The position numbers and the translations under genes were made by a program. The notes under the pieces were generated by a model that worked only from the letters and a program-made list of their open reading frames with translations, was not told the origin of the DNA and did no database searches. Below are positions 14,300 to 38,406 of a DNA stretch of 64,000 nucleotides, piece after piece (position 1 is the stretch's first letter; every line of letters begins with the position of its first letter). Source of the stretch: Methylovulum psychrotolerans (lineage in GTDB: Bacteria; Pseudomonadota; Gammaproteobacteria; Methylococcales; Methylomonadaceae); the NCBI RefSeq assembly GCF_002923755.1, contig NZ_PGFZ01000014.1, positions 1 to 64,000 on the forward strand. Reading direction: 5' to 3'.

Positions 14300-14301
14300 A
14301 A

Positions 14302-14994: not shown

Positions 14995-15006
14995 ACGTTA
15001 CCAGGG

Positions 15007-15765: not shown

Positions 15766-15799
15766 TGGCGGCTCCTTGGAAGCGAAGAAAATAGATGTA

Positions 15800-15832
15800 T
15801 TGGCAAAACGCTATTACGGTTGCTATACTGCG
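15800..15832 (+). promoter_or_regulatory. Promoter of the porin gene overlapped by a ModE-like half-palindrome
   Basis: TTGGCA (15800-15805), an 18-base spacer and TGC-TATACT (15821-15829) form an extended -10 sigma70-type promoter reading toward the porin gene. Over it lies CGCTATTAC-N6-TATACTGCG (15809-15832), an imperfect dyad resembling the CGNTATATA-type ModE operator. The stretch lies between divergent modABC and porin-modE, where a ModE site is expected. The promoter is moderately convincing; the operator is tentative. Confidence 0.4.
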
Positions 15833-15917
15833 CTTGCGGTGTTTTCTTGTCAAGCAGTGGTCATTAGCGAATTAATGATGATAGAATTTAGTTTTTATCA
15901 TTTTTGGAGATATTCAA

Positions 15918-17447
15918 ATGCTTAACAAATCGGCATTATGGTTGGCAATGACGGCCATCGGTTTTGCTAATACCAGCCAAGCCATGAGTGTGGAACAACG
16001 GATGGCGGCGATGGAAAAGAAAATGGCGCAGATGGAGAACCAATTAAAACACGCCGCAGCCGAAAACCAACAACTGAAAAGCTATCTGGCCGGACGAGCC
16101 CAACCTGTCCAAGCCGCCCCTGTCAAACAGTTGGAAGACAAGCTGTCCGTCATTAGCCAACGTCTTGAAACCGACAAAAAAGCCGCCGACGAACAAGCCA
16201 AAAAAGCCCCTAAAATTGACGTGTCCAATAAAGGCGTGGTCTTGAAGTCCGCCGATGACAATTACAAGCTGAACATTCGTGGTTATGCACAAGCAGACAG
16301 CAATTTTTATGCCGATGATGCGCCGTTGTCTTCGGGCGAGTTTGATAAGTTTTTGATCCGTAGGGCGCGATTAACGTTTGACGGCACGTTGTTTAAAAAT
16401 GTCGATTTTCGCATCGCGCCTGATTTTGGCGGCGGGCAAGTACGCCTGTTTGATGCCTTTGTCGATTTGCACTATTTTACTGCCGCCAGCTTGATGGCGG
16501 GAAAATTCCGCCAACCCGTCAGCTTGGAACGGATGCAAACGGCGACTAATCTGACCTTTATTGAACGCGCCTACCCTGCCCAGTTAGCACCTAACCGTGA
16601 TATAGGTTTTATGCTGCACGGTGCAATTGCTTATCCTGGCTATAAAGCGCAATATACACCGCAGCCAGTTTTTAAGGAGTTTATCGGTTACGAGGTCGGG
16701 GTATTTAACGGTGTCCGCGATAACCAAGCGGTACAAAATGCGGATAGGGACACCGATAACAATAAAGAAGTCGCCGCGCGGTTGTTCTCGCACCCTTTTA
16801 TGCACAGCGGTACCGCTTTGGCAGGTTTAGGTTTGGGCGTGGCGGGTACTTGGGGGCAACCACAACAAAATGCCTTAGTCTCCTTGGTCAGTGCCGGGCA
16901 GCAAGCCATCGTGACCTATAATGGCGCCGCCACTTCATCCGGCGAACAGTATCGGATTTACCCGCAAATGTATTGGTATTGGAAAACCGTTGGCATAATG
17001 GGGGAATATTTAGTATCATCACAAAACCTATATAATGCAGGGTTGAATAAACATGCCCTACAAAACAACGAGGCTTGGCATTTCAATGTGTCTTATATGC
17101 TGACCGGTGAAAATAATAGCTTTTTTGCCATTAAACCTAACAAACGCTTTGATCCGGCAGCGGGTTCTTGGGGGGCATGGCAACTTGCCGCACGGTGGTC
17201 TGAGCTGAATATCGACAAGTCGACGTTCCAAAACATCGGCTCGGTGGCAAACCCTTATTCTTTCGCCAGCTTAAGCAATTCCATCAGAAACGCCCAATCG
17301 TGGGCATTAGGGGTCAACTGGTACTTAAACGACAACCTGAAGCTGATGACCGATTACGAAGAGACGCTGTTTGTCGGTGGTGCTGCCGGCAATACTGACC
17401 GGACGACCGAGCAGGCGGTATTCTCGCGGGTTCAGGTGGCATTTTAA
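15918..17447 (+). CDS. Phosphate-selective porin O/P-type outer-membrane porin
   Basis: A 509-residue outer-membrane protein. It has a signal peptide (cleavage after about residue 22, NTSQA-M), a coiled coil of MEKKMAQMENQLK type at about 27-55, then a beta-barrel region starting at LNIRGYAQADSNFY and ending in an aromatic C-terminal residue (VFSRVQVAF), as expected for BAM-dependent insertion. Segments such as FRQPVSLERMQTA and RRARLTFDGTLF are typical of the OprO/OprP group, which passes anions. GGAG precedes ATG 15918. Placement between modABC and modE suggests that it admits molybdate across the outer membrane; this is inference from context. Confidence 0.85.
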   Translation: MLNKSALWLAMTAIGFANTSQAMSVEQRMAAMEKKMAQMENQLKHAAAENQQLKSYLAGRAQPVQAAPVKQLEDKLSVISQRLETDKKAADEQAKKAPKIDVSNKGVVLKSADDNYKLNIRGYAQADSNFYADDAPLSSGEFDKFLIRRARLTFDGTLFKNVDFRIAPDFGGGQVRLFDAFVDLHYFTAASLMAGKFRQPVSLERMQTATNLTFIERAYPAQLAPNRDIGFMLHGAIAYPGYKAQYTPQPVFKEFIGYEVGVFNGVRDNQAVQNADRDTDNNKEVAARLFSHPFMHSGTALAGLGLGVAGTWGQPQQNALVSLVSAGQQAIVTYNGAATSSGEQYRIYPQMYWYWKTVGIMGEYLVSSQNLYNAGLNKHALQNNEAWHFNVSYMLTGENNSFFAIKPNKRFDPAAGSWGAWQLAARWSELNIDKSTFQNIGSVANPYSFASLSNSIRNAQSWALGVNWYLNDNLKLMTDYEETLFVGGAAGNTDRTTEQAVFSRVQVAF

Positions 17448-17531
17448 AGCGGCGCTTAGCAAGGTTAGCGTCTGGGCCACTTATTTTGTCAGGCGCTAAT
17501 CCGGCTTGGCTTATTATTAAGGAGACTTATT

Positions 17532-18383
17532 TTGTCTAATCTGCCTATTAAGGCCGAGCTTTGCGAAACGGCAGACAGCGCGGCAACACCCGCTGAGCCT
17601 GTCGCTTTGGTCAGCGGCCAAATCCATTTGTTAAGTAGCCTAGGAGAGCGGCTATTCGGCCTACTTTCTGCCATCGGGCAAACGGGTTCCATTAATCAAG
17701 CCGCGCGGGCTGTGGGCTTAACCTATAAAGGTGCGTGGGAAATGATAGAACGCGCCAATAACCTGTCGCCCAATATTTTGGTGACAACGGCTATCGGCGG
17801 CAAACAGGGCGGCGGAACCCAACTGACGCTGGCGGGTAAAGCGTTCTTGGCGGTCTTTCAGCAACTGCAAAGCGAACATGCTATTTTTTTGCAACAACTC
17901 AACCAGCGTTTAAACACCCATCAAGATATTGTTTTCTTACTCAAGAGGTTAATTATGAAAGCCAGTGCGCGTAACCAATTTTTTGGCAAAGTGACCGATG
18001 TTGCCGTCGGTGCCGTCAATGCCACCGTTACTCTCGATCTGAAAGGCGGCGACGTGATTGTCGCTTCTGTGACGAAAGAATCTGTGGAAAGCTTAGGCAT
18101 TAAAAGCGGCCTTGATGCCATTGCCCTGATTAAAGTCTCGCAAGTTACGCTCGTGACCGATTTCGGTGGTTATCGCCTGTCGGCGCGTAACCAACTGAAA
18201 GGTACAGTGACCCGTATCCAAAAAGGCTCGGTCAATACTGAAGTCGTGATTGCCTTGCAAGGCGGCAATGCCATCGCTGCGACCATTACCAACGAAAGCG
18301 TCGATACCTTAGGCCTGACCGAAGGCAGCGAAGCGACTGCGGTCTTTAAGGCAGGTGCGGTATTGTTAGGGGTGGCTTCTTAA
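17532..18383 (+). CDS. modE: Molybdate-responsive transcriptional regulator ModE
   Basis: A 283-residue regulator. The N-terminal winged helix-turn-helix (about 30-130) contains the ModE-typical segments TGSINQAARAVGLTYKGAWE and GGKQGGGTQLT. Two TOBE/Mop domains follow (about 143-208 and 214-280), each with SARNQ(F/L)xGxVT, which bind molybdate. The start is a TTG at 17532 with AAGGAG upstream; no better ATG lies nearby. In known systems molybdate-loaded ModE represses mod operons and adjusts nitrogenase or molybdoenzyme genes. It follows the porin gene by 85 bases and is probably co-transcribed with it. Confidence 0.92.
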   Translation: MSNLPIKAELCETADSAATPAEPVALVSGQIHLLSSLGERLFGLLSAIGQTGSINQAARAVGLTYKGAWEMIERANNLSPNILVTTAIGGKQGGGTQLTLAGKAFLAVFQQLQSEHAIFLQQLNQRLNTHQDIVFLLKRLIMKASARNQFFGKVTDVAVGAVNATVTLDLKGGDVIVASVTKESVESLGIKSGLDAIALIKVSQVTLVTDFGGYRLSARNQLKGTVTRIQKGSVNTEVVIALQGGNAIAATITNESVDTLGLTEGSEATAVFKAGAVLLGVAS

Positions 18384-18408: not shown

Positions 18409-18432
18409 GGAGGACACGGTTGCGTGTCCTCC
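18409..18432 (+). terminator. Perfect 10-bp hairpin between modE and the glucoamylase gene
   Basis: GGAGGACACG, loop GTTG, CGTGTCCTCC: a perfect stem in the gap between convergent genes. There is no clear T-run on either side, so it may be a terminator, a transcript-stabilising hairpin, or both. Confidence 0.5.
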
Positions 18433-18500: not shown

Positions 18501-21113
18501 CTAAGGTTGCCAGCCCTGTACACTATCTGTCCGCACGATAGGCGTATTATTCGCCGCCGTTGTAAATGTATGGTCGGCACTTTGCTCCCATAGCGTATTG
18601 CCTTTGCTGTCACGTTTGACATATTTATACTTAAACGCGGTATTCGTCGGTAAGGAAATGCGCGTACTCCAAACTGGATAGCCTTTTGCCGATAGTTTGA
18701 TGCCCGAAGCGGGTATCCAGTTGCTCAGTAAAGGGCTGTCGCCTACCAGATAAATATTTTCTCCCCACTGGGTTTGCGCAGTGGCATTAAAACTGACGGT
18801 CACTTGCGGTTTATCGCAGGCATAACGGTCACACACCACTTTAGGGGCATCGCCTTTCCCAGACTTAATCGCAGCGGTCAGGTTGATATACTCGCCCATC
18901 GCCCAACTTAAAGGCTGCATGGAACGGGTCGCCGTGCCGGGGACATAAGGGGCTGGCGTGATGGTTTCCCAGCCCGTAATGGTTGCGGTCTGATTCCAGA
19001 TTTGTTCGGGGATAAAGCCCGCAGGTGATGAGAAGGCTTTCAGGGCACTCAGATACGCCGTGCCTTTACTGCCGTCGCCGCTTTTGGCGATTTCGTAAAT
19101 ACCCCGTTCCGCCGTAAAAATAGGCCATAAACGTCCGCGCCCCGTGCCATTGTAACTGCCGCCTTGGTTATTTTCGCCATAGCCGTCATTGTTATAACGG
19201 AAAAAAGCATCACCTTTGCCAGGGAACGTTTGCTTCAGAAGTTCATCATATTCGGGCAGGGTGTCCAAAATCGTCCAATCGTTCGGACTCATCGCCCCCA
19301 TACGCACCAATTCTAAGAAGCCGCCGTCAATAATCGACTTTTCTTTATGGTTGCCGCCACCGTTACCGAAAGTCAGGCTATCTTCGTCGTCAGGGTTTTG
19401 GTTGCTGTCGATACGGACATAATATTGTTTATTGCCATAATAGCCTGTGGTGGTAAATGTCCAATTGGCGATATTGTTGCGCCATTCGTCAGCTTTTTGC
19501 AGATAATACGCCGCCGCACCCGGATCGCCCGCCGCCGTCGCCAAATCGGCGGCACAGACTAGCCCGGCAATTTCGGCGGCAATGGTCGAAGGTGAGTACC
19601 CGCCCATTTCTTCCCAGCGCTCTTGCCCAGTATGCGGGCCGGTTTTGGCGACAAATTCCGCCGCCAATTTTATTTTCGGCCAAAGATCGGTGCGGTTAAG
19701 TTTCCACGCCAAAATGATCGGCATCGCCGCTTCGTCCATTTGGGTGCCGTTCCAATAAGGTTTGCCGTCGACAAAACTGTTTTGCGGAAAACGGCCAGCT
19801 GTAGCCCCTGTGGTTTCCATTTGTACATTGAACAAAAATTCGACCGATTTATTGGCGGTGTCTTTATCGCCCGCTGTGATTAAGGCGCTGGCAAATTTGA
19901 ACAAATCTCGCGCCCAGACTAAATGGTAGCCGCCTTGGTTGCTGTCGTTGCTGGTATCGCCCCACGGCGTACCGGGACCTGCCACCATTGCGCCGCTACT
20001 TTTGTCTTGGATGCTTTTTAAGGTCATTGCCGCCAAATAATACTGGTTATCCGCCGTACCGCCTTGGTTGTCAAGGCCTTGGGTATAGGTTTTCCATTGG
20101 TCAGCATAGGTTTTTTCGACCGCCGCCAGATCATTTTTCAGGGCGGCGTTGGCTGTGTTCATCGCTTCATTTTCGCTGCTGCCAAAACCCAACACCACAT
20201 CAAAACTGACTGAACTGCCGGTTGCGGCGGAAAAATCCAGCCAGCCCATTTGCGCGACGTTACCGCCTAAGGCATTGGCATAATGCCAATCCATGGTTCT
20301 GTCATGAACGCCTGCGAACAAATCGGTATAACCGTCGTTAGTGCCGACAAAGCCGTTAGATACCATTGGGTCGCTGCCCGTTACCCGCCAAGGTAAGGAG
20401 ACAGCTAAGGCGGATACTGCCGAATTGGCTTTGCTTTCCGAAGCGACCAAGAAAGTGCGCCCCGACGTGCTTAAGGCTTTCGAGTTATCGGCGCCATCAG
20501 TGGTGCTTTGTTTGCCGCTACATTGTGCCTTGCCCGCCCCGGAATTGTTAATGGCGGGGTTGTTCAGCAAATAGACGTTATAATCTTTCACACTTTTGCC
20601 CGCTTCCAAGGTTTGGAAAGTCACGCGCTGAATGACCACATTACTGTTCGGGTCGGTAAATATTTTTTTGCTGATTTTCCATTTGCCGTTATCGGCGGTA
20701 GTCGCCGCATTCCAAATCATAGCACGCGGATCGGTTTGGCTGATTTCATGCTTGGCTTGTTTGCGCTCTTCATCACCCCAGGTTTTGGCGGCATCGGTGA
20801 CCAAAAACTGCATATCGACATTTTGCACGGTGTCGATGGTCGGATAGAACACTTCGGTTAGGATACCTTCCGCCCCCGTAAAATAAACCCGTGATGTAGC
20901 ACCTAATGATGTGCCGAGAAAGTCTTTAGCGGCAGGGCCCCACGTTGAGGGATAGCCGGGCGGGCAAGGGGCATCTTCGGCATGAAGCGGCGCAGACAGC
21001 GGCAACAACAGTAATAGTGGCCAGCTTTTTTTAATGTGGCGAAAAGGTTGCGGTAATGCCATGCCCGTTAATTGGGCAATGGCGGCGGCTAGGGTACGGT
21101 TTTTTTGTGGCAT
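18501..21113 (-). CDS. Secreted GH15 glucoamylase with C-terminal CBM20 starch-binding domain
   Basis: An 870-residue exported enzyme. The signal peptide has its hydrophobic core at residues 31-41 and cleavage near APLHA-ED. Next comes a bacterial glucoamylase/glucodextranase-type beta-sandwich domain (WGPAAKDFLGTSLGA onward), then the (alpha/alpha)6 GH15 catalytic domain with GGYHLVWARDLFKFA, the general-acid region RWEEMGGYSPST and the general-base region PEQIWN. The last ~102 residues form a CBM20 starch-binding domain (VSFNATAQTQWGENIYLVG). ATG 21113 has GAGGAA upstream; a longer frame to 21212 would overlap the previous gene and is rejected. It releases glucose from alpha-glucans outside the cytoplasm. 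It is the last gene of a nine-gene oxidative cluster and could feed sugar to the oxidases. Confidence 0.88.
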   Translation of the reverse strand: MPQKNRTLAAAIAQLTGMALPQPFRHIKKSWPLLLLLPLSAPLHAEDAPCPPGYPSTWGPAAKDFLGTSLGATSRVYFTGAEGILTEVFYPTIDTVQNVDMQFLVTDAAKTWGDEERKQAKHEISQTDPRAMIWNAATTADNGKWKISKKIFTDPNSNVVIQRVTFQTLEAGKSVKDYNVYLLNNPAINNSGAGKAQCSGKQSTTDGADNSKALSTSGRTFLVASESKANSAVSALAVSLPWRVTGSDPMVSNGFVGTNDGYTDLFAGVHDRTMDWHYANALGGNVAQMGWLDFSAATGSSVSFDVVLGFGSSENEAMNTANAALKNDLAAVEKTYADQWKTYTQGLDNQGGTADNQYYLAAMTLKSIQDKSSGAMVAGPGTPWGDTSNDSNQGGYHLVWARDLFKFASALITAGDKDTANKSVEFLFNVQMETTGATAGRFPQNSFVDGKPYWNGTQMDEAAMPIILAWKLNRTDLWPKIKLAAEFVAKTGPHTGQERWEEMGGYSPSTIAAEIAGLVCAADLATAAGDPGAAAYYLQKADEWRNNIANWTFTTTGYYGNKQYYVRIDSNQNPDDEDSLTFGNGGGNHKEKSIIDGGFLELVRMGAMSPNDWTILDTLPEYDELLKQTFPGKGDAFFRYNNDGYGENNQGGSYNGTGRGRLWPIFTAERGIYEIAKSGDGSKGTAYLSALKAFSSPAGFIPEQIWNQTATITGWETITPAPYVPGTATRSMQPLSWAMGEYINLTAAIKSGKGDAPKVVCDRYACDKPQVTVSFNATAQTQWGENIYLVGDSPLLSNWIPASGIKLSAKGYPVWSTRISLPTNTAFKYKYVKRDSKGNTLWEQSADHTFTTAANNTPIVRTDSVQGWQP

Positions 21114-21162
21114 GGTATATTCCTCAGAAACTGAACAGTGGTGGTTTGGGGATAACATCACA

Positions 21163-23097
21163 TCAGGATTCCAACCTGACCATTTTGGCGTGTGAAGGCT
21201 TACCTGCGGCATTCAAATAAAACATCATGTAGTAACCGGGCGGATACAGATTGGCGTTGCTGGGGGCATTGAATTTAATAAGGGCGCTACCTGCCTTATG
21301 CTCTTTAATCGCTATAGGCAAATCCACCAGACGTTGGCCGTAATCGAAAGAATGCGTGACTGAACCGAGTTTGACCAGCACCAGATCGCCTGCCGCCTCC
21401 GCTGCGCTAACGGTGACTAGGCCGGTTTGGCCATATTTGATAGACTCTGGCGCTTGGATGATTTCGGGGCGCACACCCGGCTTAAACAAATAAGGTGGGC
21501 TGAAAATTTCCGCTTGCCAAATCTCTGCCGGCACGAAAGGCTGGGTATCGCCCTCGGCATAATAGCTTTGCGGATGCTGGTAAAACTCTTCTAAAGTAAA
21601 GGCTTTGGGCTGTCCCGCTTGGTCGGTCAGTTTGGCGAAGACGTTAAATTCCTTCGCATCGCGGATAGTGTCCACGCGGACGTTGCCGACACTGTCACGG
21701 GCCGCCCTGTTGGCGTTGCCGCCGATAATTAACACCCGTGCGTCGGGCAATAGCAACGCGCCGTTATGGTATAGCCTAGGCAAGTGGGCGGCTTTCATGC
21801 GCTTTATGTCATAGCCGCCGTTAGCTTGCGGGTTCGGCGACAGTAATAAGGGTTCATAGACAGGGCGGTATTCGGGATAAACGCCGCCATTAACGACCAA
21901 AACTTCTTTATCCGGCAAAATGACCGCTTGCAGATTGGCTCTAGGCTCCGCAAGAAACGCGGGGGTTTGCGACCATTGGCCTAATTTTGTTCCGGTTTTG
22001 CCGGGCGCTTGCCAACGTTGCAGACTGGAGGCGACGCTAGCGCCCGGAATATCCGGCTTATTAGGCAGGCCAAAGCCAATATCATTAGTCCCCGTCAAAC
22101 CGCCCAGCAACACCACGTCTTCGGAATTGGGCACTTGAAACGCAGTACCGTAAGCTTTTGAGGTTTCGGCTTTATCCGCACCGACCTCAAAACTGACCGA
22201 CAGCTTACCGCCCGTGTCTTTCGCCACCGCCATCAGATACGATTTTTTGCTGCTATGCGGCGTCAAGACATTGGCGATGCCCGCCTCGTCGCCAGTAATC
22301 AGCAATTTGCCTGTGGCAGTAGGGAAAACGCGTGGATACAAGTCGATGCTGTCATAAACCGAACTGCCTTCCAGTTTGGTGTTAAACGGGCTATCGGCAA
22401 TTTGTGCCAAGTCAAAATAATCTAACTTGTTCAGTAAGGGGTCGTAAATTTCTAAGCCCTGATTGATTTGATTGGGTTCATTTAATTTCAGGCCAGAAAA
22501 AATGGCGATTTTGCCGTCGGCCAGCGGCACTAAGCTCGGATACCAACGTCCTTCTTTAAGCTGCCCTTTATCCGACCAAGTATTGTCACGCCAATTATAT
22601 AGGTTGAGCTGCCTGGAACCGGTAAAGCGTCCACCCGGATAATAGCGGCCAGTACCGCCGACAAACAGGACATTGCCGTCAGCTTGCTGTAAATGGCCCG
22701 CGCAAAACAAGTCATTGTTCTCTTGGTGCTGTATCGCCGGTGGCGATGGAATTTTGGCAAATTCGGCAGTTTGGGGATCAAATAGGACGGTATTGTTAAC
22801 GGAATCATAGTCGCCTGAATCCACGCCTTCTTGGATTTTCTGAGTGTCGCCTTCGGTGACAATGGTATTACGGAAGCTGCTGCCGTTCGCTATCAGTACC
22901 TTACCGTTAGGTAACAACACCGAATGTACAGCTTGGGCTAGGGTTTGCTGGCTGGGCATAGGAACACTCTCCCATGCTCCTGCCGTTTGCGGATCTTCTT
23001 CAGCCGTGGCGGCATTAACGTTCGCGCTCATAATGACAGCGCTTAGCATTAATGATAAGGCCGTTTGATATATAGGTTGTTGGGTCAGTATGGGCAT
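21163..23097 (-). CDS. Copper radical oxidase (galactose/glyoxal oxidase-like, AA5 type)
   Basis: A 644-residue secreted protein with a signal peptide (cleavage near MSANVNA-A), a kelch-type beta-propeller, and a C-terminal DUF1929 immunoglobulin-like domain. The full copper/radical set is visible: C132 in FCAGH and Y186 in GRWYPS would form the Cys-Tyr cofactor; Y443 and H444 in RLYHNGALLLPD and H582 in VTHSFDYGQR are copper ligands. FCAG and YH match glyoxal-oxidase-type enzymes more than fungal galactose oxidase. Such enzymes oxidise primary alcohols or aldehydes and make hydrogen peroxide. The DyP peroxidase gene lies 27 bases upstream, and a glucoamylase gene 49 bases downstream. Substrate unknown. 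Confidence 0.85.
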   Translation of the reverse strand: MPILTQQPIYQTALSLMLSAVIMSANVNAATAEEDPQTAGAWESVPMPSQQTLAQAVHSVLLPNGKVLIANGSSFRNTIVTEGDTQKIQEGVDSGDYDSVNNTVLFDPQTAEFAKIPSPPAIQHQENNDLFCAGHLQQADGNVLFVGGTGRYYPGGRFTGSRQLNLYNWRDNTWSDKGQLKEGRWYPSLVPLADGKIAIFSGLKLNEPNQINQGLEIYDPLLNKLDYFDLAQIADSPFNTKLEGSSVYDSIDLYPRVFPTATGKLLITGDEAGIANVLTPHSSKKSYLMAVAKDTGGKLSVSFEVGADKAETSKAYGTAFQVPNSEDVVLLGGLTGTNDIGFGLPNKPDIPGASVASSLQRWQAPGKTGTKLGQWSQTPAFLAEPRANLQAVILPDKEVLVVNGGVYPEYRPVYEPLLLSPNPQANGGYDIKRMKAAHLPRLYHNGALLLPDARVLIIGGNANRAARDSVGNVRVDTIRDAKEFNVFAKLTDQAGQPKAFTLEEFYQHPQSYYAEGDTQPFVPAEIWQAEIFSPPYLFKPGVRPEIIQAPESIKYGQTGLVTVSAAEAAGDLVLVKLGSVTHSFDYGQRLVDLPIAIKEHKAGSALIKFNAPSNANLYPPGYYMMFYLNAAGKPSHAKMVRLES

Positions 23098-23124
23098 TAG
23101 ATCAACCTCTTAAAAATGAGTGGC

Positions 23125-24537
23125 TTAGCTTAACAGGCTAGTCAGGTTGGCTAAGAAACTGATGCTGGGGGCAAAAAAGTATTCGCCGCCTTGCAGAGTG
23201 ATACACAGCGGCATCGACACCGCTTCCCTAGTGGGTGCGCCCCATTGGCTAGGCCATTGTTGGGTGCCTTGGGGTTGCCCGATCACAGGGTCGGGGCCGA
23301 CAGCGACTTTGACAAAATTTGCCGAATTAGACCAACTGGCTTGGATAAAATTGAATTGGTTTTCGATGTTCGCCTGAAAGCATAAGAACAGCAAACCGGA
23401 ACCGGTTTCGGGGGCGGCAGTCAGATCGGCATTACCGTAACTGACGGCCCGCCGGGCGATACGGTGCTTTTTTTCCATCGCCAACGCTTGCGCGACATCA
23501 TCCGATGACACAACCCTGCCGGTATCGCCACGCGGGTTGGTTTTACGCAAATGGGAATGGAACGGGCATTTGTTCGCTGCCGTATCGGCATCGTAATTAA
23601 AATTATTGGTGGTCGGGTTATCGGGTATCGGTGTGTCCGATAAAACCACAGGACTGCCGTCTTGGAAGCGGCCCATCATCATCGCCCCCGCCAAACCGTT
23701 ATCCACACCCAAGGTTTGCGCTAAGGCTTGTTGCGAGGTATGGAACTTTTTGACATTTTGTTCCAGTTTTCGGTATACCAGATAACTGCCAAAACTGTCT
23801 TCGGTTAGGCCATTAGGGTCTTTGGTGACGATAATATCTAACGAAGCCCTAGGATCCCATTGATCGAATCCACCATCTTTTTCTTTAGCGGCATCAATAT
23901 CGCTTTTCATGAACAGGGGTTGGCTGATGCCATCGACAAAGCCAAAATGCTCTATCACTTGGCCAGCGGCGTTTCTTAAGATGAAGCCGTCATCCCGCTG
24001 GACAATATCGGCTATTTGCTCTAAGGTGTCGGCAATACCGCTTACCACATTCTGTAAGTGTTGGCTATCATCATCTGCCAACAGTAACAACGCGTGGATG
24101 TCGCCTTGAAAACCGTTTTCCCATTGGGAAGCGGACGGATCGCCTAACGTTTGGGCGATATCCGGATTTTTTATCCCTAGACGGAACGGTTTGTCGGTAG
24201 GGATTTTAAACGGCGGGATACCCAGATATTCATAACCTTGGCAGGACAGCAAGCAGTTTGCCCACACCCCGCCAGATAGCCGTTCGGCTTTATAACGCGC
24301 AGTCTCCTGCCATTGTTGGGCGGCGGATTTGACATATTGTTTGGTAAAGCCCTCCAGCCATGCCGCCACTTCAGCGGGTGTGGCCTTAAAGCGCAGTAAC
24401 AGGTGGACGCTATAATCGCGGCCATGGCCTTTGAGGATATTGCCTTGCAGATCGTCAAGAAAAATCTTGAAAATATCAGGATTACCCGGGTCAATCCCCG
24501 TCTCTAACGTAGTTGATAAAATGTCGTCTGTTAACAT
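23125..24537 (-). CDS. DyP-type haem peroxidase
   Basis: A 470-residue dye-decolorising peroxidase. The distal motif GFVDG with catalytic Asp (about 199-203) lies in HFGFVDGISQP, and the proximal histidine motif is CPFHSHLRKTNPR (324-336, H329 the likely haem ligand), with distal Arg expected downstream near LLFLCFQANIENQF. The length and CP-x-H-x-R-K-T-N-P-R version point to the long fungal/class V-D group. No Tat or Sec signal is visible from ATG 24537 (GGAG upstream; TTG 24600 and ATG 24558 are alternatives), so export is unclear. It would consume peroxide made by the neighbouring copper radical oxidase and possibly the GMC enzyme. Confidence 0.88.
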   Translation of the reverse strand: MLTDDILSTTLETGIDPGNPDIFKIFLDDLQGNILKGHGRDYSVHLLLRFKATPAEVAAWLEGFTKQYVKSAAQQWQETARYKAERLSGGVWANCLLSCQGYEYLGIPPFKIPTDKPFRLGIKNPDIAQTLGDPSASQWENGFQGDIHALLLLADDDSQHLQNVVSGIADTLEQIADIVQRDDGFILRNAAGQVIEHFGFVDGISQPLFMKSDIDAAKEKDGGFDQWDPRASLDIIVTKDPNGLTEDSFGSYLVYRKLEQNVKKFHTSQQALAQTLGVDNGLAGAMMMGRFQDGSPVVLSDTPIPDNPTTNNFNYDADTAANKCPFHSHLRKTNPRGDTGRVVSSDDVAQALAMEKKHRIARRAVSYGNADLTAAPETGSGLLFLCFQANIENQFNFIQASWSNSANFVKVAVGPDPVIGQPQGTQQWPSQWGAPTREAVSMPLCITLQGGEYFFAPSISFLANLTSLLS

Positions 24538-24737
24538 CACGTCTCCGGCAAATGCCATTACACTGTTTGAAAAATCCGCTACAAAAACATAGCTAGCCAA
24601 ATTGATGGTTTTGCTTTATTACATATAAAGGGTGCGAAGCGTTTGCTGGTACGCGTCTTCGTACCCTTCGCGGCTAACCGCTTTCATAATAGCGGGCCAC
24701 TTGGGGCCGTGGCTTTATCCCAGCGGCAAGTCTTTTC

Positions 24738-25133
24738 CTAAGGCTTGTTATTCCATAATTGTCTGGAAATGAGCCATTCGCCGTTGTCAGGGCTGCATTC
24801 GACAATCCACAAGGCCGTATATTTGGCGACCCGTATCGCTCTTGTGCTGTGGTCAGTGATTTGGGCAACCGAGTTGCCTAAAACATAAGCCGTAGCGCCA
24901 AATAATCGGATTTCCTCGGCAGTAAATACGGGATCGATATCGGCATTGGCGATTTGTCTGGCAAAACCTTCGGCTATTTCGGCTTGGCCACGGCAATCTG
25001 CCGCATTGGGCGGAGACCAAAAGGCATCGGCGGTGTACATAGCGATATAAGCCTCAATATCCCTACCCCTAACCCTATCGGCATACGTTTGCTCAAACAG
25101 GGTCTGTATCGCTTCATAATCTGACATGCTCAT
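24738..25133 (-). CDS. SnoaL-like/NTF2-fold protein (SgcJ/EcaC or DUF4440 type)
   Basis: A 131-residue protein with the typical opening YEAIQTLFEQTYADRVRGRDIEAYIAMYTADAFWSP and a closing GEWLISRQLWN beta-strand, as in cone-shaped NTF2-fold domains of stress or secondary-metabolism enzymes. No catalytic residues can be assigned. It starts 9 bases after the TIM-barrel gene stop, so both are in one transcript; the DyP gene begins 200 bases further on. ATG 25133 or ATG 25127 may be the start. Confidence 0.7.
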   Translation of the reverse strand: MSMSDYEAIQTLFEQTYADRVRGRDIEAYIAMYTADAFWSPPNAADCRGQAEIAEGFARQIANADIDPVFTAEEIRLFGATAYVLGNSVAQITDHSTRAIRVAKYTALWIVECSPDNGEWLISRQLWNNKP

Positions 25134-25142
25134 AAGTAAACC

Positions 25143-26183
25143 CTATTGGTTGGCGGCGGGAGGCTGATGCCCTCTTAATACAGATGCGGGCACATTAGCG
25201 TGGATGGCCGCCAGCACCTCGGCGGCAATAGTGTAAGCACTGGGATAAGGTGGTTTAGCGGGATCTTCTCCAGGTATCCAAAACTTCCGTCTGGATAAGC
25301 GTAGCGAATCTAAAAACGCCGGAATGGCATTAAAAATCTCCACCGCAATAGGGCCTTGATGGGCGTTTAACAGTGGTTCGACCAAGGTTTGCCAAGGTAT
25401 CCAACTGTCTTGGACATTACCCCGATCCGGTGGGGAAATCTGCGCATAATGCAGACGGCCTTCCTGTACCAGCCAGTCGAGCTGTTCTTTAAACAGTAAG
25501 GGGCCGGCACCGTCGAGGGTTTCGTGGGCCGTGTCGAGGCATACCCCGACCTGCTGACAAGGTACGCCTTCTAAAAAGCCGATCAGTTGCGCCAAAGTGT
25601 TAGGGCCTGGCGTTTCCCAATGCGTGATCGGTTCTATCGCCAATTTGACGGCTTTGCCTTGTGCATACAGGCCTAATTCGTTCAGTACGGGCTGGGCGTT
25701 CAGATAACGTTGGGCCATATAATCTTGCAGCGCGTCGCTCCAGATGCCTTGATTGTCGGCGGTTACCGGAAAGTGCCCATAAGGGTAGACAATCGGCCCC
25801 ATCATAATAGTGCCCCGTAACGCGGCGGTGATGTCCACCCGCGACTTTAAATACACCAAAGCGGCGTCGCGTTGCGCCTGATCTTCGGAACTGGGGTCAA
25901 ACGTGGGCGTAGCCCCGACATTGGTAGCGACTTTCATATCCTCCAAGCCGCTGGCATCCATCGCTTGCCGCAATTGTGCATAGTCGGCAATTTGCTGGGC
26001 ATAATCGGTGTCTTCAGTAACGGCCAGCGGGAATTCGAAACCCGAATAGCCCAGCTCTTTTAAAGCCTGCATGTGGGTGATGATGACGTTTCTATAGGCT
26101 TCGTCGCTGGGCTTCATATCTGTGGTAAACATGAAAAAGCTGATGTAAATGTCTCTGGCAGTCTTATCAGTGTGGTGATTCAT
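25143..26183 (-). CDS. TIM-barrel sugar isomerase/epimerase (AP endonuclease 2 family)
   Basis: A 346-residue cytoplasmic protein without a signal peptide. Metal-ligand positions typical of xylose isomerase-like TIM barrels are seen in LAIEPITHWE, VCLDTAHE, HYAQISPPDRG and VEIFNA. Such enzymes include tagatose/psicose 3-epimerases, inosose isomerases and related keto-sugar isomerases. It is preceded by AAGGA at good spacing and follows a second, exported TIM-barrel gene. The two share a fold but little sequence. Context with oxidases suggests it acts on an oxidised sugar (keto-sugar); the substrate is unknown. Confidence 0.78.
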   Translation of the reverse strand: MNHHTDKTARDIYISFFMFTTDMKPSDEAYRNVIITHMQALKELGYSGFEFPLAVTEDTDYAQQIADYAQLRQAMDASGLEDMKVATNVGATPTFDPSSEDQAQRDAALVYLKSRVDITAALRGTIMMGPIVYPYGHFPVTADNQGIWSDALQDYMAQRYLNAQPVLNELGLYAQGKAVKLAIEPITHWETPGPNTLAQLIGFLEGVPCQQVGVCLDTAHETLDGAGPLLFKEQLDWLVQEGRLHYAQISPPDRGNVQDSWIPWQTLVEPLLNAHQGPIAVEIFNAIPAFLDSLRLSRRKFWIPGEDPAKPPYPSAYTIAAEVLAAIHANVPASVLRGHQPPAANQ

Positions 26184-26218
26184 TAGCTATCCTTTGTGTC
26201 CGATAGGGTTAAAAATAC

Positions 26219-26272
26219 GGGTAACCATAAGGGTTATGGTTACCCCTACATGAACCTCAGTTATCTGAGGTT
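26219..26272 (-). repeat. Two tandem hairpins between the TIM-barrel genes
   Basis: GGGTAACCATAA/TTATGGTTACCC (26219-26230 and 26234-26245) is a perfect 12-bp stem with loop GGG. AACCTCAG/CTGAGGTT (26253-26260 and 26265-26272) is a perfect 8-bp stem with loop TTAT. The first resembles dispersed palindromic (REP-like) repeats. On the minus transcript they follow the IolE-like gene stop directly and could attenuate or stabilise the message. Confidence 0.55.
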
Positions 26273-26276
26273 GGCT

Positions 26277-27338
26277 TTAAAACCCTATGGTTTCACGAAG
26301 ATATTGGCGGGCCATTTGGGCATAGACTAAAGGATTGGCTTTTTTGGGGTCTTGCTCGGCTTCGACGACCAGCCAGCCTTGATAATTGGCGGCCGCTAAG
26401 GTTTCTAAGATCGGTTTAAAATTAATCGCCCCCGCACTGTCACCGGGTACGGTAAACACCCCGGCACGGATGGAGTCTAAGAAACTGCTGTTACTGGCAA
26501 CCGAACTGTCCAACACGGATTTGCGGATGTTTTTCAGATGGACATGCTTAATCCGGCTAGCATATTTTGTCGCAATCGCTAAAGGGTCAACGCCGGCATA
26601 AAACAAATGCCCGGTATCTAACAATAAATGGACATATTTAGGGTCAGTACCCGCCATCAGACGGTCAATATCCGGCGCTTTTTCCACACCCGTGCCGACA
26701 TGGGGGTGATAGCACAAACGCATCCCTTCTTTTTCCGCCAAGGCACCCAACATATTCAAGCCGTCCAGCAACGCTTTCCATTGTGCGTCGGTAAATTCCG
26801 GCTTATTTGGCAATACCGCCACCGGTTGCTGATGTACGGCATTGCCTAATTCCGCGACCACGATATCGGTACCACCCATGGTTTTGATAAAGGCCATTTG
26901 CTTTTTGAAGGTTTCTAGGGTCTGCTCATCCATGGCCTTAATGGTGTAATAAGTACCTACCCAAGGCTCGGAAATTTTCAAGCCGCGTAAGTTCAGCTCG
27001 TCAGTCAGCACTTTGGTGTCGGTCGGATATTTATGGCCGACACTGGAGCCTTGAAAGCCCGCCAAAGCCATTTCGCTGACGATTTGCTTAAAGCCAATAT
27101 CATCATCAATGGTCGGATCGTCATCATTAACCCAACCCGTTGGGGTAATGCCCAAAAAAACTTTGCTGGGGTCAAACAGGGTTTTGGTGGTGGGGGCGGT
27201 TATTTTGGCTTTAGCATAAGCGCTTTCGGCGACCGCAGCAGGACTCGCCAATACCATGCCTCCGACCATAGCGGCCAGCAAACAATGGGCAATGGCACGG
27301 CGAAGCGTAATGTTTGTAAAATAGTTACTATTGTTCAT
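26277..27338 (-). CDS. Exported inosose dehydratase/IolE-like TIM-barrel protein
   Basis: A 353-residue protein with a signal peptide (hydrophobic core LLAAMVGGMVLASPAAVA, cleavage near residue 38). The mature part opens with FLGITPTGWVNDDDP, close to the IolE/MocC family start, and carries metal-ligand-type residues in VVAELG, CYHPHVGTG, LLLDTGHLF, HVHLKN and VVEAEQD. IolE is normally cytoplasmic and dehydrates scyllo-inosose. A secreted version implies a periplasmic keto-sugar or inositol-derived substrate. It belongs to the minus-strand oxidative cluster, 113 bases after the small dehydrogenase subunit gene. Confidence 0.75.
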   Translation of the reverse strand: MNNSNYFTNITLRRAIAHCLLAAMVGGMVLASPAAVAESAYAKAKITAPTTKTLFDPSKVFLGITPTGWVNDDDPTIDDDIGFKQIVSEMALAGFQGSSVGHKYPTDTKVLTDELNLRGLKISEPWVGTYYTIKAMDEQTLETFKKQMAFIKTMGGTDIVVAELGNAVHQQPVAVLPNKPEFTDAQWKALLDGLNMLGALAEKEGMRLCYHPHVGTGVEKAPDIDRLMAGTDPKYVHLLLDTGHLFYAGVDPLAIATKYASRIKHVHLKNIRKSVLDSSVASNSSFLDSIRAGVFTVPGDSAGAINFKPILETLAAANYQGWLVVEAEQDPKKANPLVYAQMARQYLRETIGF

Positions 27339-27451
27339 ATCAATACCTTTTACTGAGATAAAATCATGTGATGTATCGTTAGGAAAACGGCGCAGCTTTG
27401 GGTGTTGCTGACATGAAATCCAGCAAGGCCTCCAACCGTCGCTAGATTTGC

Positions 27452-27907
27452 TTAGGAAAATACCGGGGCGTTAACCCAACTGTCATATCCGGGGGCTTTG
27501 GCACCGGCGGGGGTTACCCCGACAGTAGGCCATAGCAAACCTTCAGTATAGGCGGCTGGACTGACGACAAAGCTGTCGCCCTGTTCTCCGGTTCCGTAAG
27601 CGCCCCACCAGTCTTTTGGTAATTGATACCAAGTGCCGACAAACCAGAGCTTAATGATATTGCGGGTGACCGGGCCGAATTTCGGATCGTTGAAAATGGT
27701 ATTGCGCAACAGGTTATCCAACGTTGCGGCATCACCGTTTGCGGTGGCAACAATGGCTTGATATTGCAACAGCAGCTCATCTAAAGTGGCCGGGCCGATA
27801 ATCTTTTGCACGGTCTCAAAATAAGGTGCCGCCATGCCAGTACCCTGTAGCCTAAAGGTACTGAAACCTGTCAGTGTCACGGAAAAATCGATAAATAAAT
27901 CAAACAT
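27452..27907 (-). CDS. FAD-dependent sugar dehydrogenase small subunit (FAD-SLDH/FdhS type)
   Basis: A 151-residue protein. The opening FSVTLTGFSTFRLQGTGMA and the closing LLWPTVGVTPAGAKAPGYDSW correspond to the family pattern of small subunits of membrane-bound sorbitol, fructose and glucose dehydrogenases (LTG... and PTxxGGAPGYW). The family usually starts with a Tat signal that carries the catalytic subunit out of the cell. Here none is visible: GGGAGC sits directly before ATG 27907 and there is no upstream extension in frame that would add one. It lies downstream of the GMC catalytic gene with one gene in between. Confidence 0.7.
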   Translation of the reverse strand: MFDLFIDFSVTLTGFSTFRLQGTGMAAPYFETVQKIIGPATLDELLLQYQAIVATANGDAATLDNLLRNTIFNDPKFGPVTRNIIKLWFVGTWYQLPKDWWGAYGTGEQGDSFVVSPAAYTEGLLWPTVGVTPAGAKAPGYDSWVNAPVFS

Positions 27908-27934
27908 GTAGGTAGCTCCCGTTAATTCTTTAGG

Positions 27935-29038
27935 TTATGCCGCTCTCGAACCAAAGGTAGGGCCGGCATTAGTGCTCTCACCTTGGATAGGATTAGGGTT
28001 TCTGACTAATTGGCTGGCCAGTTCTTTTAAGCGGAACATACCGCCCACCGCCGGGATCAGGTATTCTGGTTTACCGTTATAAGCGTCAGTGATGTGGCGT
28101 AAAAAGTCATAATAAGCCGCTTCAAAGTCGCTGGCCGCCTGATAGACTTCAGTGCCTTGCGGATAATCCGTCAAATGCGCATTGCTTTTCAGGTCATAGA
28201 CGGCATCCCAATCGACCGTGAAAAAGTCGCCGCTCGGTTGGTTAACTGGGTCGCCGTGGACGTAATAGCGCCCTTTTTGGATTTGTTGGAAACGGTAATA
28301 GTGGCCAATTTCACCGCTGCTGCTATAAACAGAGTCTGCGTAACCCTCGCCCTGTTCGATAATCAAGTTAAGGGCCGCTTTGGCTGTTTCTAAGTTGTTG
28401 ACGACGATGATGTCGCCGCCCCCCGAATAATAATATTTGGGGCCGATTTGTAAGGCTTCATCGCCAGAAAACAACGCCTCGCCGAGTTGCGCATAAACGG
28501 TATCCAAACCGTCAATAATGGCTTCATAAAACTCGCCGATACTGTAAAAGTGCATATCCGCAGATTTGCCGCAAGCGATCAGAGCCTTATCAAGGATGCA
28601 ATGGCAATGCCGGTCTTTATGTTTATGGACTATATGGCCGCGTAAGCCGTGCGGGAGATGCACAGGCCTTAAGGCTGGGCGCTCGATATTCAAAAAAGTT
28701 TCGATAGCTTGTAGGGAAAACTTTTCCGTGCTGACCTGAAAATCCGTTTCCCCACTAGGTAAATAAGTCGGGTAGAGGGGGACAAAATCGGCTGCGGCCA
28801 AATCCGGCTTGCCGCCAATCGCATTTAAAACATTGGCAGCCAAGGTCAGATGCAACATCTCTTCAACCAGAGCGGCGCGGAGAATCAATGTGGCATCCAG
28901 GTTAGTACCCGGATGGATGGAATAAAGCGCGGTCAGGTATACGGGTATAGTGGAGTGTTCAAGCTGTAATGCCGTTTGCAGATAATGCTGCAACTCTTCT
29001 TTGCTGTTAATTTTGGCGCAGGCTGTGGTATGGTTCAT
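27935..29038 (-). CDS. Ferritin-like VioB-type (iminophenyl-pyruvate dimer synthase-like) domain protein
   Basis: A 367-residue protein. The N-terminal ~230 residues form a ferritin-like domain: LQTALQLEHSTIPVYLTALY, then RAALVEEMLHLTLAANVLNAIGG supply the Glu and His residues of a diiron-type or degenerate site. This is the domain shared with VioB/RebD/StaD, which couple oxidised tryptophan-derived imines. The VioA-type partner is absent; the adjacent flavoenzyme is a GMC protein. ATG 29038 has AGAGGA upstream (TTG 29053 is in frame but weaker). It lies 27 bases upstream of the small-subunit gene and 55 bases downstream of the GMC gene. Reaction unknown. Confidence 0.72.
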   Translation of the reverse strand: MNHTTACAKINSKEELQHYLQTALQLEHSTIPVYLTALYSIHPGTNLDATLILRAALVEEMLHLTLAANVLNAIGGKPDLAAADFVPLYPTYLPSGETDFQVSTEKFSLQAIETFLNIERPALRPVHLPHGLRGHIVHKHKDRHCHCILDKALIACGKSADMHFYSIGEFYEAIIDGLDTVYAQLGEALFSGDEALQIGPKYYYSGGGDIIVVNNLETAKAALNLIIEQGEGYADSVYSSSGEIGHYYRFQQIQKGRYYVHGDPVNQPSGDFFTVDWDAVYDLKSNAHLTDYPQGTEVYQAASDFEAAYYDFLRHITDAYNGKPEYLIPAVGGMFRLKELASQLVRNPNPIQGESTNAGPTFGSRAA

Positions 29039-29093
29039 GTATGTCCTCTTCAAATAAAAGTAGGGTTATCAATAGCGCGTGGATATATCCGGC

Positions 29094-30956
29094 CTAAGCC
29101 GTTTGTAAATCCCGCAAAATTTGCTCGATGCTCATATAGCACATAGCGGCTAAGGTGAGGGTGGTATTTGAGGTTGCGATGCTTGGCAAACTGCCGCTGC
29201 CTACCAGATAAAGGTTGTCGTGGTCCCAAGAACGTTGGTTGCGGTCTACCACAGAATCGGCGGAACTGCTGCCCATGATATGGGTGCCTGAAAAATGGTT
29301 ACCGCCCCGTGCGATCATCTCTTGGCCGTTATAGATCAAGTAGCCGAAAGAACTGGGGTCGTAATAGGTGTGATCTTCAACGCCGATCTGCGCGAAAATT
29401 TCCTTGGACAATTTACGCCCATACGCCATCCCCGCTAAGCTATAATCGGACAGGCTATAAGTGATGACCGGACGGTAATTGCCGATTTGGTCGGTGTAGC
29501 TTGGATCAATAGTGATGCGGTTATTGGGATCAGGCAATTGCTCGACCATGAACGCCAGCAACAATTGGCGCGAGACGTTATTAACCAGTCCGTTGCGTAG
29601 GTCAGTCCCATATTGCTGCTGATTATCGACCAGATCCAGCAAGTCCGTTGTCGGTGAGCCGGTTGCCCAGCCCCAGCCTTCGTTATGGATGTCGATACGG
29701 AAGCCTGCATGTTGGCTGCGGAACTGCCCGCTACGGATCTCTTCGATACCCGATGTGCCTTGCGGGCCGCGCATTGTGCCGGAAATTTCCGGCATCAGGC
29801 CCCAGGCATGGATATACGGATGATCCATTAGATTTCTGCCAACCATATCGCTGCTGCTGTTTAAGCCGGAAGCCAGCATCAGCTTGGCGTTTTCTATAGG
29901 GTTGGCGGCCAAGACAAATACCCGCCCTTGTACCGTGCCTTCGGTATATTCGGGTAAAGCGGGGTCTTGGTAGGATTTATAATGGATACGCGTGACCCGT
30001 TGGCTATCAGGATCTATGTCTATTTTGTGGGCGACCGCTTGGGAAATGATCTCGGTATTGCCGGTTTGTAAGGCTTTATACAGGGTTTTTCTGGCATCAT
30101 ATTTGGCTTGTACCGGACAAATGGGCACACAGTTGCCGTTACCTTGGCAACGCTCGCCCATTTCTTCTTGGTTAGTGCCTAGTGCGCCAACGGGTACATA
30201 GCCCTTGCCGCCATCATAGTTTGGGTTGGGGACACCGTTACGCGCTTGGGGGATACTGCGCACCAACAAACTCCGCGCTTCGCCGCTTTCGAGTGTGATG
30301 GTCATGCCATCGACATGTTTAGCGACCATCTTGTCCAGATAGGAAACCGGAATCCTTTCCATAGGAAACACATAATTGGGGTCAAAGGTAATATCAAAAT
30401 AGCGTTGGTCGTCAACATCGGCAGCTACGCCCAATTCCCGTTCCGCTATATTGTAATAAGGGTTAAGGGTTTCATAATCGTAAGGCCAGTCGCGGCCTTG
30501 TCCGAATAAGGTTTGCATTTTAAAGTCTTCCGGCAACATACGCAGGCAAGTGGCTTGCCAATGCAAGGTCGTACCGCCCAAGACGCGGGTATAAGTGCTT
30601 TCTAAAGGCAAGGTGCCCAATTGCACAAAATAGCCTTTGGTGTCAGGTACGCCGGGAGTGAGCTTGTCGACATCCAGGCTACTGGGGCTTTGCGCGTTGG
30701 CGTTAAAGGGGTAAGGGGCGTTGTTGTCTTTGTTGATATTGCCATAAAAGGTTTCGATATACTTGTTGTAACCGTTCATGGTGTAAATGTTTTCCGGACC
30801 GGCTTCCAAGATCAGCACCGACTTGCCTTGGCTGCTGAGTTCTTTGGCAATAATTGCGCCGCTAACTCCCGACCCTACGATAACGACATCATAGATTTTT
30901 TCCGCAAAGCGGGCATGATCGCTTTGGCAGCGGCATACATGTGAATACTTCGGCAT
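29094..30956 (-). CDS. GMC oxidoreductase with [3Fe-4S]-type cysteines (FAD-GDH/FdhL-like catalytic subunit)
   Basis: A 620-residue flavoenzyme. The FAD dinucleotide motif is VVIVGSGVSG (24-33) with LEAGPE at the end of the second strand. Cysteines 270, 276 and 280 in CQGNGNCVPICP give C-x5-C-x3-C, the spacing that binds a [3Fe-4S] cluster in FAD-dependent glucose and fructose dehydrogenases. The catalytic His/Asn pair typical of GMC enzymes lies in GNHFSGTHIMG and near ATSNTTLTLA. With the small subunit two genes downstream it should form a sugar or polyol dehydrogenase that donates electrons to a cytochrome or quinone. No signal peptide is visible. It is the first gene of the cluster, with a strong AAGGAG site. 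Confidence 0.85.
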   Translation of the reverse strand: MPKYSHVCRCQSDHARFAEKIYDVVIVGSGVSGAIIAKELSSQGKSVLILEAGPENIYTMNGYNKYIETFYGNINKDNNAPYPFNANAQSPSSLDVDKLTPGVPDTKGYFVQLGTLPLESTYTRVLGGTTLHWQATCLRMLPEDFKMQTLFGQGRDWPYDYETLNPYYNIAERELGVAADVDDQRYFDITFDPNYVFPMERIPVSYLDKMVAKHVDGMTITLESGEARSLLVRSIPQARNGVPNPNYDGGKGYVPVGALGTNQEEMGERCQGNGNCVPICPVQAKYDARKTLYKALQTGNTEIISQAVAHKIDIDPDSQRVTRIHYKSYQDPALPEYTEGTVQGRVFVLAANPIENAKLMLASGLNSSSDMVGRNLMDHPYIHAWGLMPEISGTMRGPQGTSGIEEIRSGQFRSQHAGFRIDIHNEGWGWATGSPTTDLLDLVDNQQQYGTDLRNGLVNNVSRQLLLAFMVEQLPDPNNRITIDPSYTDQIGNYRPVITYSLSDYSLAGMAYGRKLSKEIFAQIGVEDHTYYDPSSFGYLIYNGQEMIARGGNHFSGTHIMGSSSADSVVDRNQRSWDHDNLYLVGSGSLPSIATSNTTLTLAAMCYMSIEQILRDLQTA

Positions 30957-38299: not shown

Positions 38300-38324
38300 A
38301 AAACTTTCTTTCCGTCTTGTCCGG

Positions 38325-38340: not shown

Positions 38341-38406
38341 GCTGAACCCTGCCCATTATCAGGCTTATGTAGCTGTTTAGCGGAGCAAATGGAGTTTTAA
38401 CCCTAT

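Follow-up and report, generated by a model that had tools for sequence, protein, structure and literature searches.

A conserved bacterial gene core around a GMC dehydrogenase-like protein and its possible role in keto-sugar oxidation and dehydration

A block of nine genes occupies positions 18501–30956 of the 64,000-nucleotide stretch of Methylovulum psychrotolerans DNA analyzed here (contig NZ_PGFZ01000014.1, hereafter the window). All nine open reading frames (ORFs) lie on the minus strand, in agreement with an earlier note on this DNA, which had described them as running in one direction. Four of them, encoding a GMC family oxidoreductase, a ferritin-like protein, a small subunit and an IolE-like dehydratase, form a conserved core. 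The module is probably a keto-sugar oxidation and dehydration system with a partly exported attachment of oxidase, peroxidase and amylase. On balance, we favor the view that the block is a cyanobacterial-type variant of a widespread pathway in which glucose from alpha-glucans is oxidized and then dehydrated. The observations behind this view are the co-occurrence of the genes, the mutual exclusion in the fetched loci of a TIM-barrel protein (TIM2) and a homologue of the propeller of fungal aldos-2-ulose dehydratase (AUDH), the separate clade formed by the IolE proteins, and the conservation of site residues in the GMC protein. From these we infer the substrate, regiochemistry and product.

The conserved core

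Related loci were collected with a profile made from a ten-sequence GMC alignment, which was run over genome contigs and gave 239 confirmed stretches; the best 80 of these correspond to 78 distinct loci. Together with five plasmid regions they make up a set of 83 loci, all chosen by GMC similarity, with an excess of Rhizobium, Streptomyces and Pseudoalteromonas. The 44 labels given to these loci are our own, mostly genera and some names of metagenome-assembled genomes, with Richelia counted twice. Six phyla are represented: Pseudomonadota, Actinomycetota, Planctomycetota, Bacteroidota, Cyanobacteriota and Myxococcota.

When the nine window proteins were compared with this set by tblastn, homologues of the GMC protein were found in 83 loci, of the ferritin-like protein, the small subunit and IolE in 82 each, and of TIM2 in 65. 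The SnoaL-like protein, the AA5-like copper radical oxidase (AA5) and the DyP-type peroxidase (DyP) were found in five each, and the GH15 glucoamylase of the window type in one. The four core genes occur together in 82 of the 83 loci, covering 44 labels, and in 82 the ferritin-like gene begins within 500 nt after the GMC gene. The sole locus without partners, L047, has its contig edge 92 bases past GMC. The figure means that this branch of GMC proteins keeps its partners, not that every GMC protein does. The joint recurrence of four of the nine families in 82 loci, and of eight in five cyanobacterial ones, shows that the block is not a chance assembly. The earlier note had suggested looking for conserved co-occurrence of all nine families; this holds for the four-gene core and fails for SnoaL, AA5 and DyP, whose five loci are all cyanobacterial. 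No description of the module or of its chemistry was found in the literature searched, which comprised open PMC papers, and to that extent the earlier statement that no such system had been described still stands.

The oxidation step

The closest relatives of the GMC protein in the PDB are the large subunits of FAD glucose dehydrogenase and fructose dehydrogenase (FDH). In an alignment with BcGDH, H132 falls at the position of the FAD-linked histidine and H554 and N597 at the His/Asn pair, while C270, C276 and C280 align with the 3Fe-4S cysteines 212, 218 and 222. These three cysteines are invariant across the ten-sequence alignment. The roles of the BcGDH cysteines and histidine, and the onward passage of electrons to a cytochrome c subunit, are described in an excerpt of PMC6719666. 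Since the GMC protein aligns at all of these positions, it looks like a dehydrogenase that exports its electrons through an Fe-S cluster, and calling it an oxidase is unsupported.

The 151-residue small subunit has no Pfam match above chance and no NCBIfam match, and a PDB sequence search with its profile gave only chance-like matches. A paralogue (L019:6510-6980) weakly matches PF12318, the FAD-SLDH family (E 0.006, below the cut-off). In the structural model of the small subunit (pLDDT 87) the top three PDB fold matches are fructose-dehydrogenase small subunits (E 0.35–0.5, TM 0.48–0.60). It is thus likely a remote relative of the FAD-sorbitol/fructose dehydrogenase small subunits.

The three-subunit complexes of BcGDH and FDH share with the module a GMC alpha subunit with His-linked FAD, the 3Fe-4S cysteines and the His/Asn pair, and a small subunit of probably the same fold. 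They differ from it in three respects. The small subunit of the window has no Tat signal, and none was seen by eye in 43 small-subunit rows, one per label, which include some second copies and some unsure starts. There is no cytochrome c subunit among the nine window genes or the annotated representatives of the neighbor families. The third difference is the ferritin-like protein as a fixed partner. Its model (pLDDT 84) best matches PDB 3hl1 (E 8e-11), and an EExxH motif and further Glu and His positions are conserved in its alignment and would bind iron. The VioB model matches it weakly (14.5 bits, E 0.0055). It appears to be the only fixed partner able to accept electrons from the GMC protein, and may do so.

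Pfam and NCBIfam annotation agrees with the previously assigned families for eight of the nine genes. The exception is the small subunit, for which the old label is likely right, though remote; the assignment of the ferritin-like protein to the VioB type comes down to the weak model match.

Two alternative proteins, possibly for one step

TIM2 matches PDB 2qw5 with an E value of 6e-132, an entry labeled merely "Xylose isomerase-like TIM barrel". Among the 83 loci, 65 have TIM2 only, 15 have the AUDH homologue only, none has both and three have neither (Fisher p 7e-14). Counted by label the numbers are 32, 9, 0 and 3 (p 3e-7), with Aquimarina, whose species differ in the type they carry, scored as TIM2. 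Both p values are a guide only, as loci and labels are related, and genes outside the fetched flanks would escape the count. The TIM2 match in L045, at 25% identity only, is doubtful.

The AUDH homologue aligns with residues 79–432 of the fungal enzyme 4a7k (E 6e-60) and matches PF22301 (E 3e-43). It consists of the propeller part alone, with 421–440 residues compared with 900 in 4a7k. PF22301 is single-copy in all eight AUDH-type genomes searched, at coordinates inside the module locus; the match rests on coordinates, since contig names could not be matched to loci.

The loci with neither gene are L047, which ends at the contig edge, L089 and L094. The last two (Salipiger and Puniceibacterium) have another TIM barrel of the AP_endonuc_2 type, which follows a PCC-domain protein and precedes an ODP-type protein with a metallo-beta-lactamase fold (Pfam on L089). 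This is possibly a third replacement.

The simplest reading of the alternation is that TIM2 and the AUDH homologue perform the same or an equivalent step. AUDH is an enzyme of 2-keto sugars. IolE-type chemistry is dehydration, and taken with the alternation this favors keto-sugar dehydration over the simple isomerization proposed earlier. The fungal pyranose oxidase belongs to another branch of the GMC family, which is not known to carry the Fe-S cysteines, and we know of no fungal counterpart of IolE and TIM2. In the fungal system glucosone is converted to cortalcerone, so that, as in the module, GMC sugar oxidation is followed by dehydration; AUDH-propeller homologues occur in 15 of the 83 bacterial loci, though as the propeller only. 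The formation of cortalcerone from glucose by AUDH and pyranose 2-oxidase goes back to a 1992 reference cited in an excerpt of PMC11650716.

The IolE-like protein

In a tree of 44 module IolE sequences (one per label plus the window) and 30 others, the module sequences form one clade (support 99/94), which was recovered in 98% of 200 bootstrap trees. The 30 comparison sequences were taken from the best-scoring matches, which favors canonical IolE, and long branches were flagged, L045 included. None of the loci of these 30 has another window gene within about 1.5 kb. The window sequence adjoins the cyanobacteria (99/81).

By eye, a signal peptide is present in the window protein and in six cyanobacterial rows; none was seen in the other printed rows, in which starts are unsure for high-GC loci. 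The homologues of L019–L023 align only from window residue 50–57 onward. The profile of the module IolE also matches, over the same region, a keto-sugar enzyme, the 2-hydroxy-3-keto-glucal hydratase 8ro4 (E 3e-11). The host genome has a single IolE, the module copy; its best IolD match, at 236.4 bits, falls short of the cut-off of 715. Compared with the IolE (myo-inosose-2 dehydratase) of myo-inositol catabolism, the module protein belongs to the same family and exceeds its cut-off; it differs in its separate clade, its other partners and its signal peptide in the window and cyanobacteria.

Glucan hydrolases and variants of the module

A hydrolase of the GH15, GH133 or GH63-like type is present in 75 of the 83 loci and 39 of the 44 labels, in a search whose query representatives were partly drawn from the same loci. 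This bears out the suggestion in the earlier note that the genes form a multi-gene system tied to alpha-glucan-type hydrolases. The GH15 protein of the window matches PF00723 with 139.2 bits and the CBM20 starch-binding domain (PF00686) with 88.8 bits; against the equivalog TIGR01535 it scores 633.4, below the cut-off of 741.9. Relatives of this protein are found in L045 (33%) and L114 (35%). The window genome has two GH15 genes in 5.19 Mb, so chance proximity to the core should be rare.

The attachments to the core vary. A thiamine pyrophosphate (TPP) decarboxylase-type enzyme with a metallo-hydrolase is found in 47 of the 83 loci, 42 of which have GH15; the AUDH-propeller protein occurs in 15, of which 12 have both GH133 and GH63-like genes; SnoaL, AA5 and DyP accompany the core in five loci, all of them cyanobacterial; and a second pair of small-subunit and GMC genes is seen, often beside GH15 and lipocalin-like genes. 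The TPP enzyme of related loci was considered as IolD and rejected: its best models are of indolepyruvate decarboxylase types, below the cut-off, and IolD is absent among the 25 of 52 families listed.

The accessory set shared with cyanobacteria

SnoaL, AA5 and DyP are an accessory set common to the window and cyanobacteria. They were not found in 78 of the 83 loci, including a sixth cyanobacterial locus, L081. Eight-gene cyanobacterial clusters are present in L037, L058, L100, L101, L110 and L112, and L098 has all eight genes, the fetched locus stopping within DyP. GMC homologues at E ≤ 1e-150 were found in 5 of 291 cyanobacterial genomes. Three of the five, those of L058 (G548), L110 and L112, hold all eight non-GH15 genes together. 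In G694 the genes for GMC, ferritin-like protein and small subunit share a strand and IolE-SnoaL-TIM2-AA5-DyP occupy the opposite one, with a GH15 gene about 2.3 kb beyond DyP whose product is 35% identical to that of the window. The stretches read of G835 hold GMC, ferritin-like protein, small subunit and a piece of DyP only.

In the five cyanobacterial clusters, identities to the window proteins are 56–65% for AA5 and 48–60% for DyP, the last being a partial match. C132, Y186, Y443, H444 and H582 of AA5, numbered along the complete ORF, are invariant in six sequences; by comparison with galactose oxidase, we take these to be the radical-copper site. AA5 scores 175.7 against the GlxA equivalog NF052501 and does not reach its cut-off of 800, and the DyP orthologue of Nostoc L100 scores 89.7 against TIGR01413, below the cut-off of 100.5. 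The proteins are of the same families as GlxA, galactose oxidase and the DyP peroxidases, and differ from these in being attached to a keto-sugar core. It is plausible that AA5 releases peroxide and that DyP uses it. In L098 a multicopper oxidase gene is present between IolE and SnoaL.

A possible pathway and its alternatives

In the pathway that we favor, GH15 or its GH15, GH133 or GH63-like relatives would free glucose or short glucosides. The GMC protein and small subunit would then oxidize a ring hydroxyl, most likely that at C2 (or C3), to give a keto-sugar, the electrons leaving through FAD and the 3Fe-4S cluster. Because the cluster has no cytochrome subunit, the ferritin-like putative di-iron protein is the best candidate for the acceptor or oxygen-reducing partner. 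Canonical IolE dehydrates 2-keto-inositol by beta-elimination beside the ketone, and the IolE-like enzyme may remove water from the keto-sugar in the same manner. TIM2, or in other lineages the AUDH propeller, would carry out the next isomerization or dehydration to a deoxy-diulose or pyranone-like product. In the window and the cyanobacteria, exported AA5 and DyP might oxidize this product further or handle peroxide. What looks new here is the combination of genes, the ferritin-linked Fe-S dehydrogenase and the replacement of TIM2 by AUDH; the families themselves are known.

Several findings weigh against this pathway. The GMC protein was tried as a pyranose oxidase and rejected (TIGR02462, 56.8 bits against a cut-off of 544.9), and the glucose and fructose dehydrogenases, its nearest solved GMC structures, oxidize C1 and C5. 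PF22301 was found neither in the window's own genome nor in 299 genomes of the host phylum, a search in which no control genome was positive, the positive check being the separate one on the eight AUDH-type genomes. Of the 14 members of the AUDH neighbor family, three (L048, L059 and L093) are encoded on the strand opposite to the core. A signal peptide on IolE, with none on the GMC protein, small subunit or TIM2, is awkward for a simple linear pathway. The window and the cyanobacterial clusters have the same content, with the order of TIM2/SnoaL and of AA5/DyP swapped, and transcription might be broken into two units at the terminator-like stem that separates IolE from TIM2. Eight of the 83 loci have no hydrolase of the types named, including four of the six cyanobacterial ones (L037, L058, L081 and L098), and the hydrolases matched in L100 and L101 are fragmentary, lying where the locus ends.

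Other explanations have been considered. Lactose and glucoside 3-dehydrogenases oxidize C3, and the module might be a bacterial 3-keto-glucoside pathway, in which the GMC complex acts at C3 and the resulting 3-keto sugar undergoes lyase and hydratase reactions by IolE and TIM2. We consider this rather unlikely. 3-Keto-glucoside and C-glycoside breakdown with AP_endonuc_2 enzymes also proceeds by oxidation followed by TIM-barrel lyase or hydratase steps, and the match of the IolE profile to 8ro4 would fit such a route. So would a published levoglucosan pathway whose steps are oxidation, elimination, hydration and reduction (PMC7676230, in excerpt). The subunits and partners are different, however: Pfam found none of the known small beta subunits of those systems in the nine proteins, and the lack of a visible Tat signal on the small subunit and of a cytochrome in the window cluster is unlike the 3-dehydrogenase family. 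The alternate of TIM2, moreover, is a homologue of AUDH and so of a 2-keto-sugar enzyme.

It is quite unlikely that the block is mostly biosynthetic, with the ferritin-like protein performing the key oxidation, as VioB-type domains do in biosynthesis, and the sugar enzymes supplying a building block. The membership of that protein in PF12902, with its faint VioB similarity, and the occurrence of SnoaL, lipocalin-like and ABM-domain neighbors would suit such a role, but no NRPS, PKS or amino-acid oxidase family is present among the recurring neighbor families annotated, which cover part of the neighbors. Extracellular oxidation, in which GH15 would free glucose outside the cell, the GMC protein and AA5 oxidize it and DyP spend the peroxide, was the proposal of the earlier note and seems to us improbable. 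By eye, signal peptides are present on IolE, AA5 and GH15, and AA5 is accompanied by DyP in each of the five cyanobacterial loci where it occurs; "extracellular" can thus be kept for these three exported proteins and not for the other six, in which no signal is visible. The GMC protein is of the Fe-S dehydrogenase type, and 78 of the 83 related loci gave no match to AA5 or DyP. Least probable of all is a cyclitol pathway, in which the GMC protein would oxidize inositol or another cyclitol and IolE run its textbook reaction. IolE does exceed the TIGR04379 cut-off, but the partners are alpha-glucosidases and AUDH, and a literal inositol pathway was rejected for the lack of an IolD over the cut-off in the host and the separation of the module IolE clade from the 30 other sequences.

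Our favored pathway of glucan-derived glucose oxidation and dehydration can be extended, and this extension is offered tentatively, as possible and still doubtful. An unrecognized pathway would have spread horizontally over six phyla, and a dehydrated keto-sugar would be made from alpha-glucan, whether stored or taken from outside. In its first enzyme, a sugar oxidase of a new kind, electrons would pass from flavin and the 3Fe-4S cluster to a di-iron ferritin-like protein, which replaces the cytochrome, and on to oxygen; IolE would have changed its substrate; and for the third step a TIM barrel and the AUDH propeller, proteins of unrelated folds, would be interchangeable.

Layout of the block and its surroundings

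The features of the block are collected in Table 1. From the GMC gene to the GH15 gene the intergenic gaps, calculated from the listed ORF starts, are 40, 27, 113, 93, 9, 137, 27 and -50 nt. An ATG at 24537 behind GGAG is a better start for DyP and reproduces the 200-nt gap before this gene given in the earlier note. Promoter and terminator scans gave site counts at the level of shuffled sequences (22 vs. 19.6, sd 4.6), and the repeat matches flanking the cluster are imperfect, widely spaced and chance-like.

Table 1. Coordinates of the nine genes and two terminator-like stems in the window
Feature	Position	Strand	Evidence
GMC oxidoreductase, alpha-subunit type of 3Fe-4S FAD sugar dehydrogenase; core gene 1	29094..30956	-	PF05199/PF00732
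Ferritin-like putative di-iron protein; core gene 2	27935..29053, start probably 29038	-	PF12902, E 1e-60
Small subunit, likely remote relative of FAD-sorbitol/fructose dehydrogenase small (hitchhiker) subunit; core gene 3	27452..27907	-	PF12318 (paralogue), fold match
IolE-like dehydratase with signal peptide; core gene 4	26277..27338	-	TIGR04379, 356.7 bits, cut-off 290
Terminator-like 12-bp stem with T-rich tail, between IolE and TIM2	26219..26245	-	terminator scan
TIM2, AP_endonuc_2 TIM-barrel protein	25143..26183	-	PF01261
SnoaL-like/DUF4440 protein; accessory	24738..25133	-	PF14534, PF12680
DyP-type peroxidase; accessory	23125..24600, start probably 24537	-	TIGR01413, 112.2 bits, cut-off 100.5
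AA5-like copper radical oxidase (galactose-oxidase/GlxA-like) with signal peptide; accessory	21163..23097	-	PF09118
Secreted GH15 glucoamylase, glucodextranase-N and CBM20	18501..21212, start probably 21113	-	PF09137, PF00723, PF00686
Terminator-like 10-bp stem after the last gene (GH15)	18409..18432	-	terminator scan

The sugar cluster is located inside a region resembling those for molybdate uptake and nitrogen fixation. At 13655–18383 there are genes for an ABC transporter set, a porin O/P and a TOBE/HTH protein, which look like molybdate uptake, and 34931–43628 holds a sigma-54 activator with GAF, a PAS histidine kinase and Rnf-type genes. A five-gene run on the minus strand at 6127–13474 encodes a CoxE-type vWA protein, DUF5682, a MoxR-like AAA protein, DUF5691 and a SWIM zinc finger protein, and resembles the MoxR-vWA NTPase systems. 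Genes for a RoxA-like cytochrome and a multicopper oxidase are found at 44177–48228, 13–17 kb from the cluster, and 60603–61922 (+) encodes an RTX calcium-binding repeat protein in which 14 repeat stretches were matched. Three large ORFs had no Pfam match in the scans: 32661–34877 (+, 738 aa), 2311–4197 (+, 628 aa) and 4158–6074 (+, 638 aa).

Host and distribution

A gene in the host genome matches PF02461, the methane/ammonia monooxygenase family (E 2e-129), and the host is therefore most likely a methanotroph. A search of 151 genomes found homologues of the GMC protein at E ≤ 1e-60 in only two, the host itself and a relative at the level of the order (42% identity). This suggests horizontal gain. 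The trees do not show that all nine genes came from cyanobacteria: the window is placed beside the cyanobacteria in the IolE tree (99/81) and weakly so in the GMC tree (87/49), and the TIM2 tree does not resolve its position.

The module is on large plasmids in L019, L021 and L023 (rhizobia) and L020 (Pseudoalteromonas). In L023 it is flanked by a LuxR/AHL-synthase pair on one side and an IS701 transposase on the other, and a second GMC gene is annotated in two pieces.

Implications

The records of the plasmid loci label module genes "myo-inosose-2 dehydratase", "ferritin-like protein" and "GMC family oxidoreductase". If the proposed pathway is correct, these genes are misread under their public labels, and in the examined loci they take part in a common route by which glucan becomes a dehydrated keto-sugar. 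The fungal counterpart of this route yields the antibiotic cortalcerone, and antimicrobial, antioxidant or catabolic-shunt functions are candidate purposes for the bacterial product. The pathway would also suggest a function for PDB 2qw5, the relative of TIM2, and for a ferritin-like family. It would define a new class of Fe-S sugar oxidase, and the replacement of one enzyme by another of a different fold would be directly testable.

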